Source: Burkholderiales bacterium (GTDB taxonomy: Bacteria > Pseudomonadota > Gammaproteobacteria > Burkholderiales > Casimicrobiaceae). From it: a DNA stretch of 64,000 nucleotides. The DNA lies in the NCBI GenBank assembly GCA_905339295.1, contig CAJPFI010000013.1:1-64000 (forward strand). The letters run 5' to 3'. The position numbers and the translations under genes were made by a program. The notes under the pieces were generated by a model. That model was not told where the DNA came from. It searched no databases and saw only the letters and a list, made by a program, of their open reading frames with translations. How positions within the stretch are numbered: the stretch's first letter is position 1; every line of letters begins with the position of its first letter. Shown piece by piece: positions 10,669-48,546 of the stretch.

Positions 10669-13600
10669 GCGCGCCGCTGGCAAGGCCGGTCGTTGCGCAC
10701 GTCCCGGGCGAGGCGGGAGAGCTGGCGCGGCGGCTTTCCGGCGCGGTGCGCGGCGAGACGATGTTCGACCGGGCGTCGCGCGGGCGCTACGCGACCGACG
10801 CGTCGATCTACCAGGTCGAGCCGCTCGGCGTCCTGGTGCCCGCCTCCCACGAGGACGTGCGCGCCGCGTTCGAGGTGTGCCGCGAGCTCGGCGTCCCGAT
10901 GCTGCCGCGCGGCGCGGGCAGCTCGCAATGCGGGCAGACCGTGGGCCGCGCGCTCGTCGTCGACCACAGCAAGCACCTGCGCGGCGTCGTCGCGTTCGAC
11001 CGCGAGGCGCGAACGATCACCGTCGAGCCGGGAATCGTGCTCGACGAGCTGAACGCGTGGCTGAGGCCGCACGGCCTGTGGTTCCCGGTCGACGTCAGCA
11101 CGTCGGCCCAATGCACGCTCGGCGGGATGGCGGGCAACAATTCGTGCGGCTCGCGCTCGATCGCGTACGGCAACATGGTCCACAACGTGCTCGCGATCGA
11201 CGCGCTGCTCGCCGACGGCACCGAGGCGCGCTTCGGCGACGAGGCGGCGATGCGCGACGCGCCGCCGCGCGTGCGCGCGCTCGTCGAGTCGCTGCGCGCG
11301 ATCGGCGGGCGCGAGCGCGACGAGATCGCGGCGAAGGTCCCGAAGGTGCTGCGCCGCGTCGGCGGCTACAACCTCGACGTGTTCCATCCGCAGGGCGAGC
11401 GGGGCTACACCGCCGACGGCGGCGTCAACCTCGCGCACCTGCTCGTCGGCAGCGAGGGCACGCTGGCGTGGACGCGCACGCTGACGCTCGCGCTCGTTTC
11501 GCCGCCGGCGAAGCGGACGCTCGGCGTCGTCAATTTCCCCACGCTCTACCGCGCGATGGAGTGCGCCCAGCACATCGTGACGCTCGGGCCGACGGCAGTC
11601 GAGCTCGTCGACCGCACGATGATCGGCCTCGCCCGAGACAACCCGGCGTTCCGGGCGGTGATCGACGCGGCGCTCATCGGCGAGCCCGACGCGATCCTGC
11701 TGGTCGAGTTCGCCGGCGACGACGCCGGGGAGACGCGGCGCCGGCTCGACCGTCTCGTCGAGCTGATGGGCGACCTCGGGCTCCCGGGATCGGTGGTGCG
11801 GATGACCGACGCAGGCGCGCAGAAGGCGCTGTGGGAGGTGCGCAAGGCCGGGCTCAACATCATGATGAGCATGAAGGGCGACGGCAAGCCGGTCTCGTTC
11901 ATCGAGGACTGCGCGGTGCCGCTGCCGCATCTCGCGCAGTACGTCGACCGGCTGACGCGCGTGTTCGAGAAGCACGGCACGCGCGGCACCTGGTACGCCC
12001 ACGCGTCGGTCGGGACGCTGCACGTGCGGCCGATCCTCGACATGCGCCGCGACGGCGCCGCGAAGATGCGCGCGATCGCGGAGGAGGCCTCGGCGATGGT
12101 ACGCGAGTACAAGGGCGCGTACTCCGGCGAGCATGGCGACGGGCTGGTGCGCAGCGAGTGGGTCGCGTGGCAGTTCGGGCCGCGTCTCGCGCGCGCGTTC
12201 GAGGAAGTGAAGGCGCTGTTCGACCCGCGGGGCCTGATGAACCCGGGCAAGATCGTGCGTCCGCCGCGCATGGACGACGCCTCGCTGTTCCGCTACCCGC
12301 CGGGTCACGCGACGCTTCCGGTCGCGACGGCGCTCGACTGGTCCGCCTGGGACGTGCACGGCGACGCGGCGAGCGGCGCGCTCACCGCGCCCGGCACCGG
12401 GGGCGATCCGGCGCGCGGTTTCGGCAAGGCCGTCGAGATGTGCAACAACAACGGCCATTGCCGCAAGTTCGACGCCGGCACGATGTGCCCGAGCTTCCGC
12501 GTCACGCGCGACGAGCGGCACCTGACGCGCGGACGGGCGAACACGCTGCGGCTCGCGCTGGGCGGCCGGTTCGGGCCGGACGTCGCGTCGCCCGAGGTGC
12601 GCGACGCGCTCGAGCTGTGCGTGAGCTGCAAGGGCTGTCGCCGCGACTGCCCGACCGGCGTCGACATGGCGCGGATGAAGATCGAGTTCCGGCACCAGTG
12701 GCGGCGCGCGCACGGGCTCGCGCTGCGCGACCGGATCGTCGCGACGCTGCCGCGCTGGGGCGCATGGGCGTCGCGGCTGCCGTGGCTTCCCAACCTGCGC
12801 GACGCGCTGCCCGGCCTCGCCGGGTTGTCGGAGCGCGTCGCGGGGTTGTCGGCGAAGCGCGCGTTGCCGCGCTGGCGGCGCGACACGTTCTTCGCGTCCG
12901 CGCCGCGTGACGACGACGCGCCCGGCGTGGTGCTGCTCGTCGACACGTTCACGAACTACTTCGAGCCGGAAAACGCGCAGGCGGCGCTGGCGGTCCTGCG
13001 TGCGGCGGGCCGGCGCGTCGCGATCGCGCGCGCTCCGGTCGGCGACGCGAGGCCGCTTTGCTGCGGGCGAACCTGGCTCGCGGCGGGACTCGTCGACGAG
13101 GCGCGGGCCGAGGCGCGCCGCGTCGTCGACGCGCTCGCGCCGCACGTCGCGGCGGGCACGGCCGTCGTCGGGCTCGAGCCGTCTTGCCTGCTGACGCTGC
13201 GCGACGAGTTCCTCGCCATGGGTCTGGGCGCGGAGGCCGACGCCCTTGCGGGACGCGCGATGCTGATCGAGGAGTACCTCGCGCGCGAACACGCCGCGGG
13301 GCGGCTCGATCTGGCTTTCGCCGCGCTGCCGCACGAGCGCGCGCTCGTCCACGGCCACTGTCACCAGAAGGCGTTCGACGCGTTCTCGCCCACCGTCGCG
13401 GCGCTGGGCCTCGTGCCGGGGCTCGGCGTCGACGTCGTCGAGTCGAGCTGCTGCGGCATGGCGGGCAGCTTCGGCTACGAGGCCGAGCATCACGACATCT
13501 CGATGCGGATGGCCGAGCTATCGCTCCTGCCCGCGGTCCGGCGGGCCGGCGCCGACACGCTGATCGTCGCCGACGGCACGAGCTGCCGCCAGCAGATCGC

Positions 13601-43443: not shown

Positions 43444-44925
43444 ATGTATTACCCGCGCTCGTTCCTCAAGTTCATCCTGCTGTCGTTCCTGCTGGTGAGC
43501 GTGCCGCTCCTGTACGCGCTCGCCGAGCTCCTGCTGTCGGTCGACCGTCTCTCCGCGCAGAGCCGGGAGGAAGTGCTGCACGCGGCGCAGGCGGCGCGCA
43601 CGAGCCGGCTGCTCTTCGAGCAGGCGACGACGCTCGAGCGCATCGTCCGACAGCAGCTGATCCTCGACGACCCGGCGCTCCTCGACGACTACGGCAGGAT
43701 GCAGCGCGAGTTCCGCGCCACGGGCGCGCAGCTCGCGCAGCTCCCGCTCGAGGCCTCCGAGCTCGCGACCCTCCAGACACTGCTCGACAGGGAGACCGGC
43801 CTCGCGTCGCAACTGGTCGCGCCGCAGCGCACGCAGGAGGGCGCGGCGAAGCTCGCCGAAGGTTTCGCCGCGCTGGTCGACGGCGCGCAGGCGATGCTTG
43901 CCGCGTCGACGCAGCTCACGCAGCGCGCCATCGAGCGGCTGCAGGAGACCGCCGCGCGCGCCCGCGAGAAATGGCTCTGGCTCGCGCTCGCCACCGCGGG
44001 CATCGCGCTGGCGCTCGCGATCCTGTTCGCCGTGCTGATCGCCCGCCCGATCCGACAGCTCGACCTCGCGATCCGCCAGATGGGGACCGCGGACTTCACG
44101 CACGCGGTCGTCGTCAACGGGCCGCAGGACCTGCGCTACGTCGGCCAGCGCCTCGACTGGCTGCGCACGCGTCTGCGCGACCTCGAGGAGCAGCAGACGC
44201 GCTTCCTGCGCCACGTGTCGCACGAGCTGAAAACGCCGCTCACCGCGGTGCGCGAGGGCGCCGAGCTGCTGCGCGACGAGGTCGGCGGCAAGCTCACGCG
44301 CGAGCAGCATGACATCGTGCGCATCGTCCGCGAGAACACGCTGTCGCTGCAGAAGCTGATCGAGGACCTGCTCAGGTGGCACCAGACGCGCATCGTCGAA
44401 CCGGCGACGGTCGGCCCGGTCGAGCTTCCCGGCGTCGTGCGCCGCGTGCTGCGCGAGCAGAAGCTCGCCGCGCTCGCGAGGATGATCGCGTTCGAGACGC
44501 GCCTCGAGCCGGCCGTCGTCACCGGTGACGCGGAGCGGCTGCGCACGATCGTCGACAACCTCGTCTCCAACGCGATCAAGTACTCGCCGCGGTCGGGCAC
44601 GATCGCGGTCGATCTTCGCGCGCGCGACGGGCAGGCGATCCTCGAGGTGGCCGACGAGGGCCCCGGTGTCGAGGCGGCCGAGCGGGAGCGCGTGTTCGAG
44701 TCGTTCTACCAGGGCGCGCCGCCCTCGGAAGGGCGCGTGAAGGGCAGCGGGCTCGGGCTCGCGATCGCGCGCGAGTACGCGCTCGGGCACGGCGGTCGCG
44801 TCGAGGTGACCGGGCGTGCCGATGGCGCGGCGGGCGCGTGCTTCCGGCTCCTGCTGCCGCTCGTGGCGGGCGCGGGCGCGCATGCCGCGGCGCGTCGCGG
44901 CCTGACCGCCGCGGGAGTGGAGTGA
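43444..44925 (+). CDS. glrK: Sensor histidine kinase of the GlrK/QseE type
   Basis: The 493-residue protein has a transmembrane helix at the N-terminus (about 8-28), a periplasmic helical sensor region (about 30-175) and a second transmembrane helix (about 178-200). A HAMP domain, the phospho-acceptor His260 (RHVSHELKTPLTAV), the N-box VDNLVSNAIKYSP, and G boxes DEGPGVE and GSGLGLAIA complete it. The gene order kinase, lipoprotein, sigma-54 activator matches E. coli glrK-qseG-glrR, which responds to envelope stress. Its stop overlaps the next ATG (TGATG). Confidence 0.85.
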   Translation: MYYPRSFLKFILLSFLLVSVPLLYALAELLLSVDRLSAQSREEVLHAAQAARTSRLLFEQATTLERIVRQQLILDDPALLDDYGRMQREFRATGAQLAQLPLEASELATLQTLLDRETGLASQLVAPQRTQEGAAKLAEGFAALVDGAQAMLAASTQLTQRAIERLQETAARAREKWLWLALATAGIALALAILFAVLIARPIRQLDLAIRQMGTADFTHAVVVNGPQDLRYVGQRLDWLRTRLRDLEEQQTRFLRHVSHELKTPLTAVREGAELLRDEVGGKLTREQHDIVRIVRENTLSLQKLIEDLLRWHQTRIVEPATVGPVELPGVVRRVLREQKLAALARMIAFETRLEPAVVTGDAERLRTIVDNLVSNAIKYSPRSGTIAVDLRARDGQAILEVADEGPGVEAAERERVFESFYQGAPPSEGRVKGSGLGLAIAREYALGHGGRVEVTGRADGAAGACFRLLLPLVAGAGAHAAARRGLTAAGVE

Positions 44926-45797
44926 TGGTCCCGCCGGCCCGCGACACGCGCGCGTCCCCGCGGGGTGCATGCCGCGCGCGCACGGCGTTGGTCATCGCAT
45001 GCGCGGCCGCGCTCGGCGCCGGTTGCGGGTCGCTGCCGCAGACGTCGCCGGAGGACATCTACGCCCTCCCGGCGCTCGAGTTCGACTCGACGCCGCTGAT
45101 CGAGTCGCCGCCGCTCGAGCCGGTCGAGCCGGTGGAGCCGCCGCTGCTGGCGCCGCCGCTCATGCCCGCGCCGGCGCCCGCGCCTTCGGTCGCGCCCGCG
45201 CCGTCCATGTCCGCGATCGCGGCCTCGCCCGGTGCGTCGGGACCGGCGTCAGGATCGCCCGCCGCGCGCGCGCCGGCGGAGAACGTGGTCGCCGCGGTGG
45301 CGCCCGCCCCGTTGCCGCAGGTCGCGGTCCTGCCGCCGGAGGACCTCGCGGCACTCGCGCTGATCGCGGACCTGCAGCGCATCCATGCGCTCGGTCCCGA
45401 CGAGGTGAAGCGCGAGCTGGCCGCCGCCACGAGCGCGCTGTCGCGCGAACGCAACGACGCGAACCGCGTTCGCCTCGCGGTCCTCTACACGATGCTCCAC
45501 ACGAATCTCCAGGACGATCAGCGCGCGCTGCAACTCCTCGAGAACGTCGCAAGGAGCGGCGGGGGGGCGACGCCGATCAAGGCGCTCGCAGCCGTGCTGC
45601 ACGCACAGGTGTCCGACCGGATCCGTTCGGTGCGCGAAGAGCAGCTCAAGGCCAACGACGCCGTGCAGAAGCTCGAGGCGCTCCGGGCGATGGAGCGCAG
45701 CCTGTTCCGGGACCGCGTCCGCAGCGGCGGCGGGGGCGGTGGAGGCGGGGGTGGGGGCGGCGGTGGCGGCGGCGGTGGCGGCAGCGGCGGGCGATGA
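44925..45797 (+). CDS. QseG-like lipoprotein of the GlrK/GlrR locus, with poly-glycine tail
   Basis: The 290-residue protein has a hydrophobic signal and a lipobox-like LGAGC, so outer-membrane lipidation is likely, although the -3 residue is atypical. A long Pro/Ala-rich linker (about 50-125) is followed by a helical domain (about 140-265) with LAALALIADLQRIHALGPDEVKREL, resembling QseG. It then ends in about 20 consecutive glycines plus SGGR. The middle position between kinase and response regulator is the strongest evidence for QseG. QseG in enterics binds the kinase and controls its activity. Confidence 0.65.
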   Translation: MVPPARDTRASPRGACRARTALVIACAAALGAGCGSLPQTSPEDIYALPALEFDSTPLIESPPLEPVEPVEPPLLAPPLMPAPAPAPSVAPAPSMSAIAASPGASGPASGSPAARAPAENVVAAVAPAPLPQVAVLPPEDLAALALIADLQRIHALGPDEVKRELAAATSALSRERNDANRVRLAVLYTMLHTNLQDDQRALQLLENVARSGGGATPIKALAAVLHAQVSDRIRSVREEQLKANDAVQKLEALRAMERSLFRDRVRSGGGGGGGGGGGGGGGGGGGSGGR

Positions 45798-45825
45798 CGC
45801 CCGGCCGCGAACGGGGAAGGGCACG

Positions 45826-47175
<1,350 letters not shown>

Positions 47176-47207
47176 CCGGCCGCTGCCGCGCCGGAGCGCT
47201 TCCGTGC

Positions 47208-47225
47208 TGTCGTGACGGAACGACA
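47208..47225. promoter_or_regulatory. GlrR-box-like site 1 (TGTC-N10-GACA)
   Basis: TGTC (47208-47211), ten bases and GACA (47222-47225) match exactly the site known for E. coli GlrR. It lies about 190 bp upstream of the sigma-54 promoter, typical of an enhancer position. Confidence 0.7.
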
Positions 47226-47272
47226 TCCATTCCTGTTGCAAAACAGGGATTTGCGTCGGATCAGCGCGCGAC

Positions 47273-47290
47273 TGTCGTGCGGATGCGACA
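47273..47290. promoter_or_regulatory. GlrR-box-like site 2 (TGTC-N10-GACA)
   Basis: A second exact TGTC (47273-47276), ten bases, GACA (47287-47290). It is centred 65 bp from site 1, close to six helical turns, so two GlrR dimers could sit on the same face. Confidence 0.72.
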
Positions 47291-47326
47291 GTCGGCCCCC
47301 CAACGCGGCCTGGCCGTCCATCTCTT

Positions 47327-47339
47327 GATCAGCGGATTA
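47327..47339. promoter_or_regulatory. IHF-like site between GlrR boxes and sigma-54 promoter
   Basis: GATCAGCGGATTA matches the IHF consensus WATCAR-N4-TTR except for the first base. It lies in an AT-rich patch between the enhancer boxes and the promoter, where DNA bending helps sigma-54 activators. A 13-bp palindrome, AGACATTATGTCT, follows at 47362-47374. Confidence 0.45.
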
Positions 47340-47398
47340 ACGTGTGTTTGATAGACGATAAAGACATTATGTCTGCAAGATAGCGTATTTTTGCAATG

Positions 47399-47415
47399 TT
47401 GGCACGGCACGTGCT
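47399..47415 (+). promoter_or_regulatory. Sigma-54 promoter downstream of glrR
   Basis: TTGGCACG-G-CAC-GTGCT fits the consensus TTGGCACG-R-N3-TTGCW with one mismatch. The invariant GG (47401-47402) and GC (47413-47414) have the required 10-bp spacing. The start is expected near 47425. Confidence 0.75.
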
Positions 47416-47450
47416 TCGTGGTGGTCGACCATCGACGAACGCACGCAGCC

Positions 47451-47597
47451 ATGGACGACTACGCCCCCGACTTCATGTCCCACTGGATTCCTGCGCACGA
47501 TGCGGCCGACGACCGCGACGAGCGCCGGACTGCCGGGGACGAGGAGGCGCTTGCCGAGCTGGCCGAGAGGATCCTCGCGGCGCGCAGCGTCGTCTGA
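47451..47597 (+). CDS. Possible small acidic protein within the sigma-54 transcript
   Basis: The 48-residue ORF (MDDYAPDFMSHWIPAHDAAD..., ending in an Ala/Glu-rich helix LAELAERILAARS) has G/C at most third positions, like real genes here. It begins about 26 nt after the predicted transcript start, but no Shine-Dalgarno is visible. It has no transmembrane segment and I recognise no family. It could be non-coding sequence with the region's base bias. Confidence 0.4.
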   Translation: MDDYAPDFMSHWIPAHDAADDRDERRTAGDEEALAELAERILAARSVV

Positions 47598-47671
47598 ACG
47601 GGTTTCACCCGCGGCCGGAGGGCCGCCCCACCGGAAGCGGGGGACCATGCTTCCTCTATCGGAACCCCCTT

Positions 47672-47704
47672 GCCCGCCAACTCCTCCCGGCGGGCTTCTT
47701 TTTC
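47672..47704 (+). terminator. Strong intrinsic terminator of the sigma-54 transcript
   Basis: GCCCGCC (47672-47678) and GGCGGGC (47689-47695) form a perfect 7-bp stem with a 10-nt loop, followed by TTCTTTTTC. On the other strand there is no T-run, so it serves the plus strand rather than thyA. Confidence 0.88.
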
Positions 47705-47751
47705 GCCCGCAACGATGTGAGTGCTTGCTAGCGTAACCGGAGCGACGGAGG

Positions 47752-48546
47752 CTAGACCGCGACCGGCGCCTTGATCGCCGGATGGTGGCGGTAGTCGGCG
47801 ATCTCCACGTCGTCGTAGTCGTAGTCGAAGATCGAGGCCGGCCGGCGCCGGAAGGCGAGCCGGGGGGACGGGTAGGGGGCTCGCGACAGTTGCTCGTCCA
47901 CCTGCGCCATGTGGTTCGCATACAGGTGGCAATCGCCGCCGGTCCAGACGAAATCGCCGACGCCGAGCCCGCACTGCTGGGCGAGCATGTGCGTCAGGAG
48001 CGCGTAGCTCGCGATGTTGAACGGCACGCCGAGGAAGATGTCGGCGCTGCGCTGGTAGAGCTGGCACGACAGGCGGCCTTCCGCCACGTAGAACTGGAAC
48101 AGCGCGTGGCAGGGGGGAAGCTTCATGCGCGGAATCTCGCCGACGTTCCACGCAGACACGATCAGCCGCCGCGAATCCGGATTGCGCTTCAGTTCGGCGA
48201 CGAGATTCGCGATCTGGTCGATGCGCGTGCCGTCCGGCGCGGGCCAGGAGCGCCACTGGACGCCGTAGACCGGGCCGAGCTCGCCGTCGGCGTCCGCCCA
48301 CTCGTCCCAGATCGTCACGCCTCGCTCGCGCAGCCAGCGCACGTTCGACTCGCCCCGCAGGAACCACAGGAGCTCGAGGATCACCGACTTGAGGTGGACG
48401 CGCTTGGTCGTGACCAGCGGAAACCCGCGCGCGAGGTCGAAGCGCATCTGGTGGCCGAACACCGAGCGCGTGCCGGTGCCCGTGCGGTCCGCCTTGCGGT
48501 GGCCGTGGTCGCGCACGTGGCGCATGAGGTCGAGGTAGGGTTGCAT
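47752..48546 (-). CDS. thyA: Thymidylate synthase
   Basis: The 264-residue protein has standard ThyA length and motifs: [17 protein letters not shown], the nucleophile cysteine in [31 protein letters not shown] and the C-terminal KAPVAV end. It converts dUMP to dTMP and produces the dihydrofolate that FolA recycles. ATG at 48546, 36 bp after a TACAAT -10 element. Confidence 0.97.

Follow-up and report, generated by a model that had tools for sequence, protein, structure and literature searches.

A GlrR-linked sigma-54 locus predicted to encode a small protein and a conserved anti-Shine-Dalgarno RNA module on one transcript

GlrR-type systems of enteric bacteria feed envelope control through small RNAs, and the locus described here raises the question of what such a regulator might control in a Burkholderiales bacterium from the DNA immediately 3' of its own gene. 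The window, a 64,000-nt stretch of contig CAJPFI010000013.1, has at this place two GlrR-type boxes, a sigma-54 promoter and a terminator (Table 1), and the first-pass annotation put forward the interval of about 280 nt that they bound, in which it recognised no gene, as a candidate undescribed small RNA under GlrR/sigma-54 control. Comparison with relatives bears out the predicted control and a conserved RNA module, but the transcript would also be the mRNA of a small protein: a conserved 48-aa ORF lies within the supposedly geneless interval, and the label of non-coding sRNA is therefore not right as stated. The reading that we favor, and consider probable rather than secure, is that of a GlrR/sigma-54 dual-function transcript, at once a small-protein mRNA and a 3' riboregulator that would pair with Shine-Dalgarno regions.

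Table 1. Features of the element and its regulator gene in the window (position 1 is the first letter of the window)
Feature	Position	Strand	Remark
glrR-like response regulator / sigma-54 activator gene	45739..47175	+	longest ORF
GlrR-type box 1, TGTC-N10-GACA	47208..47225	+	exact
IHF-like site between boxes, one mismatch	47241..47253	+	position kept in relatives
GlrR-type box 2, TGTC-N10-GACA	47273..47290	+	exact
Second IHF-like site, one mismatch to WATCARNNNNTTR	47327..47339	+	less consistent among relatives
Sigma-54 promoter TGGCACGGCACGTGCT (-24/-12)	47400..47415	+	one mismatch to TGGCAC-N5-TTGCW
Small ORF, 48 aa (MDDYAPDF...LAARSVV)	47451..47597	+	matched in 39/64 family genomes
Hairpin H2 (GGAAGC/GCTTCC)	47633..47654	+	covaries in 11 relatives
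Unpaired CCCCC run upstream of terminator	47665..47669	+	31/32 non-g3 loci
Terminator hairpin and T run	47672..47703	+	stem 47672-47678/47689-47695; loop AACTCCTCCC 47679-47688

The regulator gene, whose true start is by eye probably near 45826, comes last in the order kinase, lipoprotein-like ORF, regulator. Its product has the Pfam domains Response_reg and Sigma54_activat, and the GlrR model NF011695 is its best NCBIfam match; because the score of 646.8 bits lies under that model's cut-off of 763, we call the regulator only GlrR-like. Second in this gene order, the lipoprotein-like ORF (44838-45797, +) has a C-terminal run of about 20 glycines followed by SGGR, and a DHFR-like ORF is seen by eye upstream of the kinase. 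On the 3' side of the element lies a convergent thymidylate synthase gene (47752-48546, -); its match is convergent in 22 of 38 loci, and at L123 it is co-directional and 34% identical. The genome encodes RpoN and Hfq. At the gathering level Rfam recognises only a tRNA in the window, and neither GlmY nor GlmZ.

Both boxes reported by the first-pass annotation are present, and its sigma-54 promoter stands as well, with transcription predicted from that site to start near 47426. The boxes are the only two exact ones in the window, where 0.57 would be expected, and at least two occurred in 10 of 100 shuffles, so that their number by itself is weak evidence. The promoter match by itself is likewise weak: sigma-54 sites with at most two mismatches number 11 in the window against 14.8 expected, and 83 of 100 shuffles had as many. 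Since boxes and promoter alone are near chance in the window, the case for the control region rests on conservation. We tabulated 39 loci including the window, omitting L097-L099 as repeats of L115, L006 and L007, and counted promoters over 38 after dropping L114, which a contig end cuts. A pair of boxes with at most one mismatch each lies 65-67 bp apart in 37 of the 38 (65 bp in 30 loci, 66 bp in six and 67 bp in one), the exception being L010, near a contig end, where the pair is absent; a TGGCA-type site with GC at -12 is found in all 38, and two of these depart from TGGCA by one letter. The IHF-like site to which the earlier annotation pointed, the second in Table 1, does exist, but the conserved position is the one between the boxes, where a site with at most one mismatch occurs in 34 of 37 loci as against 2.4% in letter-shuffled sequence. 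The predicted control of the element by GlrR and sigma-54 is well supported by these conserved boxes, IHF-like site and promoter. In E. coli, QseF (GlrR) uses TGT-N12-ACA sites, help from IHF and a sigma-54 promoter, and the control region of the window and its relatives has the same arrangement, with TGT-N12-ACA-symmetric sites, an IHF site and a sigma-54 promoter all present and binding predicted (PMC6075780).

A pattern that joins a box to a promoter across 95-125 nt occurs at 26 places in 25 of the 64 family genomes and its reversed control at none; the window's own genome has it once, at the window's locus. Four of the 26 places are not the element, judging from coordinates and from the loci read: two (G002 and G030:C140) look by eye like coding DNA, one (G006) lies upstream of an EF-hand-like protein and one (G026) upstream of a different small RNA candidate. 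In 29 of 39 loci a glrR match ends 264-497 nt upstream of the ORF; the other ten are L009, L010, L114 and the seven loci of genus g3, and no glrR ortholog was found in the 16 kb read around one g3 copy. Exact boxes number 47 in the own genome against 13 for the reversed pattern, and a search for a second GlrR target among 28 of the 47 found only the window pair to have a promoter-like site scoring above 8.

The small ORF begins about 25 nt past the predicted transcription start. A single-protein search with the 48-aa sequence found matches in 14 of the 64 family genomes, and a profile built from those 14 proteins raised this to 39 at E ≤0.05: 21 of 22 genomes in the own genus, 3/4 in g2, 7/17 in g3, 2/2 in g4, 5/7 in g5, 1/1 in g6 and 0/11 in g7, with three additional g3 copies spotted by eye. 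Residues invariant in the 14 proteins include P6, W12 and a C-terminal A-A-R. Of the 703 pairs that 38 proteins give, the 25 closest have a pN/pS of 0.09-0.45; the median is 0.74 over the 635 pairs with pS <0.75, many of them near saturation, and protein constraint is clear in close pairs only. The window ORF has no clear Shine-Dalgarno sequence, at most three of the six letters of AGGAGG precede the ORF in 10 of 38 loci, and some relatives have an AGGAG-like site upstream of it. Neither NCBIfam nor Pfam has a family for the protein at E up to 1, and the four relatives tested match none in NCBIfam and none above the Pfam cut-off; the Pfam domain DUF1127, which would have placed it with CcaF1, is absent, and a profile search of the PDB gave a best match of only E 0.23. 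AlphaFold predicts helices at residues 9-12 and 22-47, the latter a long C-terminal helix of modest confidence, and at its mean pLDDT of 71 the model was too uninformative for a fold search.

The strong terminator of the first-pass annotation is clear by eye and from the relatives; a simple terminator scan found none. Over 32 loci, the seven g3 loci being set aside, a terminator is recognised in 30, all with the unpaired CCCCC, and CCUCC, an anti-Shine-Dalgarno sequence, stands in the terminator loop of 29 of the 32. L005 has the loop CUCUCCC; of two own-genus loci, L114 keeps CGAATCCCCC and the stem, with GACGACA as its loop, and in L123 the ORF is present and no 3' module is recognisable. 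Conservation among relatives, the check that the annotation itself had suggested, is thus seen for boxes, promoter and terminator in most loci, but the boxes are missing from L010 and the module from L123. The terminator loop and the unpaired bases upstream rank among the most conserved letters. The exposed loop CTCCTCCC that had been proposed at 47681-47688 is confirmed and conserved; a second one, CTTCCTCT at 47650-47657, was misjudged, its first five bases being the 3' arm of the covarying hairpin H2. In 11 relatives, chosen for a recognisable H2, 66 of 66 cells are paired and 10 are double-change cells, values that none of 500 shuffles reaches; the count of pairs with double changes was reached by 97 of 500. 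In the own genus, L005 and L107 each have an additional hairpin, its loop of the CCUCCUCC type.

Alignment A2, of 26 of the 30 terminators with four near-duplicates left out, gave model R1, and A3, which adds five of the seven g7 sequences described below, gave model R2. In A3 the terminator stem is 97.7% paired, with one compensatory change from G-C to A-U and four of seven pairs invariant, so that its covariation is real but thin. R1 at E ≤0.01 finds 43 of the 64 family genomes in all seven genera; its matches in g3 are weak, and that in G005 lies 6 kb away from the element. The 50-nt module folds better than its shuffles (z -2.62), and the 89-nt 3' part (z -0.61) and the whole transcript (z 0.23) do no better than theirs. 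GCCCGC/GCGGGC stems are common terminators in the genomes examined, and CCUCC is in the loop of none of 12 distinct GCCCGC-type control terminators from elsewhere in the fetched DNA, most of which had been fetched as R2 matches.

Two genera appear to offer natural tests that separate the RNA from the protein. In seven of the 11 g7 genomes the promoter is accompanied by one or more exact boxes and by a 3' module that hardly varies (CCCCCUUUGGCCCACCUCCUCCUGGUGGGC, with a single base changed in one of the seven), and glrR is upstream in the six stretches that contain it; between promoter and module the g7 sequence is diverged, variable in length and devoid of a common ORF. The g3 genomes keep the ORF and have CCUCC on a separate 12-bp hairpin directly 3' of the stop codon, in which 108 of 108 cells are paired over 10 loci (9 distinct sequences), three pairs show compensatory changes and 14 of 15 loop columns, CCUCC among them, are invariant. 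The conserved CCUCC-type loop motif is thus found in g7 and g3 as well as in the non-g3 loci counted above. These patterns support a functional RNA with a putative Shine-Dalgarno-complementary loop, and the function of the anti-Shine-Dalgarno loop class, silencing of mRNAs by pairing of the CCUCC loop at translation starts, would be predicted for it.

R2 at E ≤0.05 matches 89 of 399 genomes of the order, ten of them in the own family, and 24 out-of-family loci that were read look mostly like ordinary GC-rich terminators. Longer stretches were fetched for 20 out-of-family matches, and four of these are GlrR-type loci, L253, L254 and L255 in family f48 and L272 in f11. The module stands behind glrR in L253, L254 and L272, and behind a box and promoter in L255, whose stretch does not include glrR; L272, with the loop CUCCCCCC and no exact box, is the weaker case. 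The operon cargo is CsbD-like and glycine-zipper proteins in L253 and EF-hand, glycine-zipper and DUF3568 proteins in L254; in another family, then, the module terminates glrR-locus operons with different proteins. Among named relatives (80 loci returned, 44 scanned for boxes) an exact box lies 3' of glrR in 15 of the 44, and each of the 19 loci read, those 15 plus four others, shows a sigma-54-like site no more than about 500 nt downstream of glrR. Ten downstream proteins scanned there comprise four with a BON domain (one also with EF-hands), three MdoG/OpgG, and one each of EF-hand protein, glycosyltransferase (by eye OpgH) and globin. A cmsearch of 37 stretches, 33 of them named, gave a best E of 0.16 among the named; three named loci that were read have ordinary terminators, and none of the named loci has a convincing module. 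Because these loci have sigma-54-like sites without a convincing module, we conclude that a promoter 3' of glrR is widespread in the sample and that the RNA module is confined to fewer lineages.

Given that both layers, protein and RNA, are conserved, a dual-function transcript is the simplest account: the ORF is under constraint and the RNA element is conserved independently of it, on what is presumed to be a single transcript. The sensor kinase would phosphorylate the GlrR-like regulator, which would bind the two boxes and, assisted by IHF, drive a single sigma-54 transcript only about 280 nt long, from near 47426 to 47703. Its 5' half would be translated into the 48-aa protein with the predicted long C-terminal helix. 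Its 3' end, consisting of the unpaired CCCCC and the terminator stem-loop showing CUCCUCCC, may act either as a processed fragment or as part of the whole transcript, pairing with GGAGG-like Shine-Dalgarno regions of other mRNAs and lowering their translation; Hfq would probably assist this pairing, and the regulation may be part of an envelope response. What we read directly from the DNA are the sites, the ORF, their conservation and covariation, and the g7 promoter and module without an ORF, and it is from these that we infer transcription, translation, processing, base pairing, targets and a role in the envelope. Several observations count against the dual-function transcript. L114 and L123 break the own-genus pattern, and the L005 loop departs from CCUCC; the long pieces fold no better than shuffles, few pairs of the terminator stem vary, and the median pN/pS is high; no clear Shine-Dalgarno sequence precedes the ORF in the window, the order-level matches read are mostly ordinary terminators, matches in g3 are weak and the GlrR score is below cut-off. 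Among the competing readings, the one that we rate highest is an mRNA only.

According to that competitor, the transcript serves a GlrR-controlled small protein and ends in an ordinary terminator kept for termination. The ORF is indeed conserved and constrained in close pairs, stems of this kind are common terminators in these genomes, and two loci retain the ORF without the CCUCC loop; yet few letters are as conserved as those of the loop and of the unpaired bases upstream, which termination does not require, g7 has promoter and module without the ORF, and no control terminator has the CCUCC loop, and we therefore regard an mRNA only as unlikely. The converse, a base-pairing sRNA in the main with the small ORF as a secondary, lineage-specific passenger, fits a 3' module that is the part common to most family genera and the other-family loci, with cargo proteins that vary between lineages, but the constraint in close pairs and the residues invariant across genera make it less likely again. 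We give a very small probability to the C-rich 3' end being a CrcZ- or GlmY-like decoy for a protein or another sRNA instead of an mRNA binder. Conservation of unpaired C-rich segments at the sequence level suits protein and RNA binding equally, and crcZ sits after its activator gene cbrB, a position that the element resembles; the complementarity of the loop to ribosome-binding sites nevertheless points toward mRNA pairing, and one or two hairpins per RNA would be few for a sponge. Least probable of all, in our estimation, is that the CCUCC loop acts in cis by closing the Shine-Dalgarno sequence of its own ORF, which the AGGAG-like sites of some relatives would permit but which sits badly with the lack of such a site in the window and other loci and with the absence of a conserved ORF from g7.

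The proposed dual-function transcript has partial counterparts among known systems. GlmY/GlmZ are the GlrR/QseF sigma-54 sRNA system of Enterobacteriaceae, and the element resembles the GlmY system (PMC6075780) in having a GlrK/GlrR-like two-component system with a lipoprotein-like gene and the predicted RNA at the same locus, and tandem palindromic upstream sites, an IHF-like site and a sigma-54 promoter. It differs in that its RNA lies 3' of glrR and not 5' of glrK, would encode a protein, has a conserved CCUCC loop module and lacks a GlmY/GlmZ Rfam match. The ar14/NfeR1 sRNAs of Alphaproteobacteria silence mRNAs via anti-Shine-Dalgarno loops (PMC10746234) and, like the element, have CCUCC-type loops on hairpins with variable stems; unlike it, they have three hairpins with CCUCCUCCC and are not known to be under sigma-54/GlrR drive (PMC10746234, PMC3927594). 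The ccaF1-CcsR1-4 locus of Rhodobacter and the 'cuckoo' RNAs give a small protein and sRNAs from one processed precursor (PMC10253847); here too a small-protein gene would share a transcript with a putative regulatory RNA, and ccaF1-CcsR differs in its DUF1127 protein, its RpoHI/RpoHII promoter and its four sRNAs. No Rfam family matches the element at threshold, and the best sub-threshold one by score, ar14 (RF02344), reaches 16.8 bits (E 0.49) against a cut-off of 58.8, not homologous by score; because of this, and because the protein is not DUF1127, the likeness to ar14/NfeR1 and to ccaF1-CcsR is analogy only. In RepG, an sRNA of Helicobacter, a C/U-rich terminator loop reportedly does the targeting, and RepG is under other control and is not known to carry an ORF. 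It targets a G-repeat in an mRNA leader, a homopolymer unlike the Shine-Dalgarno target proposed for the element (PMC8295292). Open-licence literature on GlrR (sRNA/sigma54, Burkholderia, betaproteobacteria, Ralstonia) yielded no description of the element; by title, that on GlrR with sigma54 and small RNA concerns enteric bacteria, and the GlrR regulon literature also touches Acidithiobacillia. Within Rfam, Pfam, NCBIfam and this literature the element is apparently undescribed, as the earlier annotation had supposed.

A further idea, which we hold only tentatively, is that the output which GlrR keeps across these lineages is the RNA rather than a protein, a 3' anti-Shine-Dalgarno terminator module at the end of GlrR/sigma-54 transcripts around which the protein cargo is exchanged: the 48-aa protein, CsbD-like and glycine-zipper proteins, EF-hand and other proteins, or no conserved ORF at all. 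If this idea is correct, an envelope-stress response would have the terminator for its riboregulator. On the dual-function reading, the element would be a second, unrelated RNA output of a GlrR-type regulator, outside the enteric lineage, seeded by the terminator loop and sharing its transcript with a small protein. It would offer a testable answer on the role of GlrR beyond the enteric bacteria and an example of protein cargo exchanged while the RNA end stays constant.

Other small elements came to light in the loci read. In two glrR loci, from Variovorax and Xenophilus, 67-69 aa proteins without a Pfam match follow the sigma-54 promoter (L018, 5062-5262; L043, 4996-5202), upstream of a glycosyltransferase-like gene that was scanned for L043 only. 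In G026 (L165/L226, G026:C39:3069-3330) a box and sigma-54 promoter precede about 100 nt in which two hairpins are seen by eye, with the loops UCCUCCUCCUC and CCUCCUCC, and this may be a separate anti-Shine-Dalgarno sRNA; tandem CCUCCUCC after sigma-54 promoters was found in G026 only (1 of 64 family genomes) against 2 for the reversed control, a chance-level number. Three genomes read in genus g25 of family f19 (L232, L238, L249) have a hairpin CUCUUUAA-CUACCUCCUCCC-UAAAGAG, with variants, and then a C-rich terminator, an sRNA candidate of 'cuckoo' look at which no GlrR/sigma-54 signals were seen. At L241/L260 (G367:C10, near 78480) box and glrR are both absent in 4.8 kb, and a good sigma-54-like site, TGGCATGGCTCTTGCA, lies 69 nt upstream of the locus centre, with an R2-matching terminator. 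Another sRNA candidate is the stretch of L276 at about 10750-10910 (G005), where a sigma-70-like promoter, recognised by eye, precedes some 110 nt that contain C-rich stretches, a CCUCC and a terminator.
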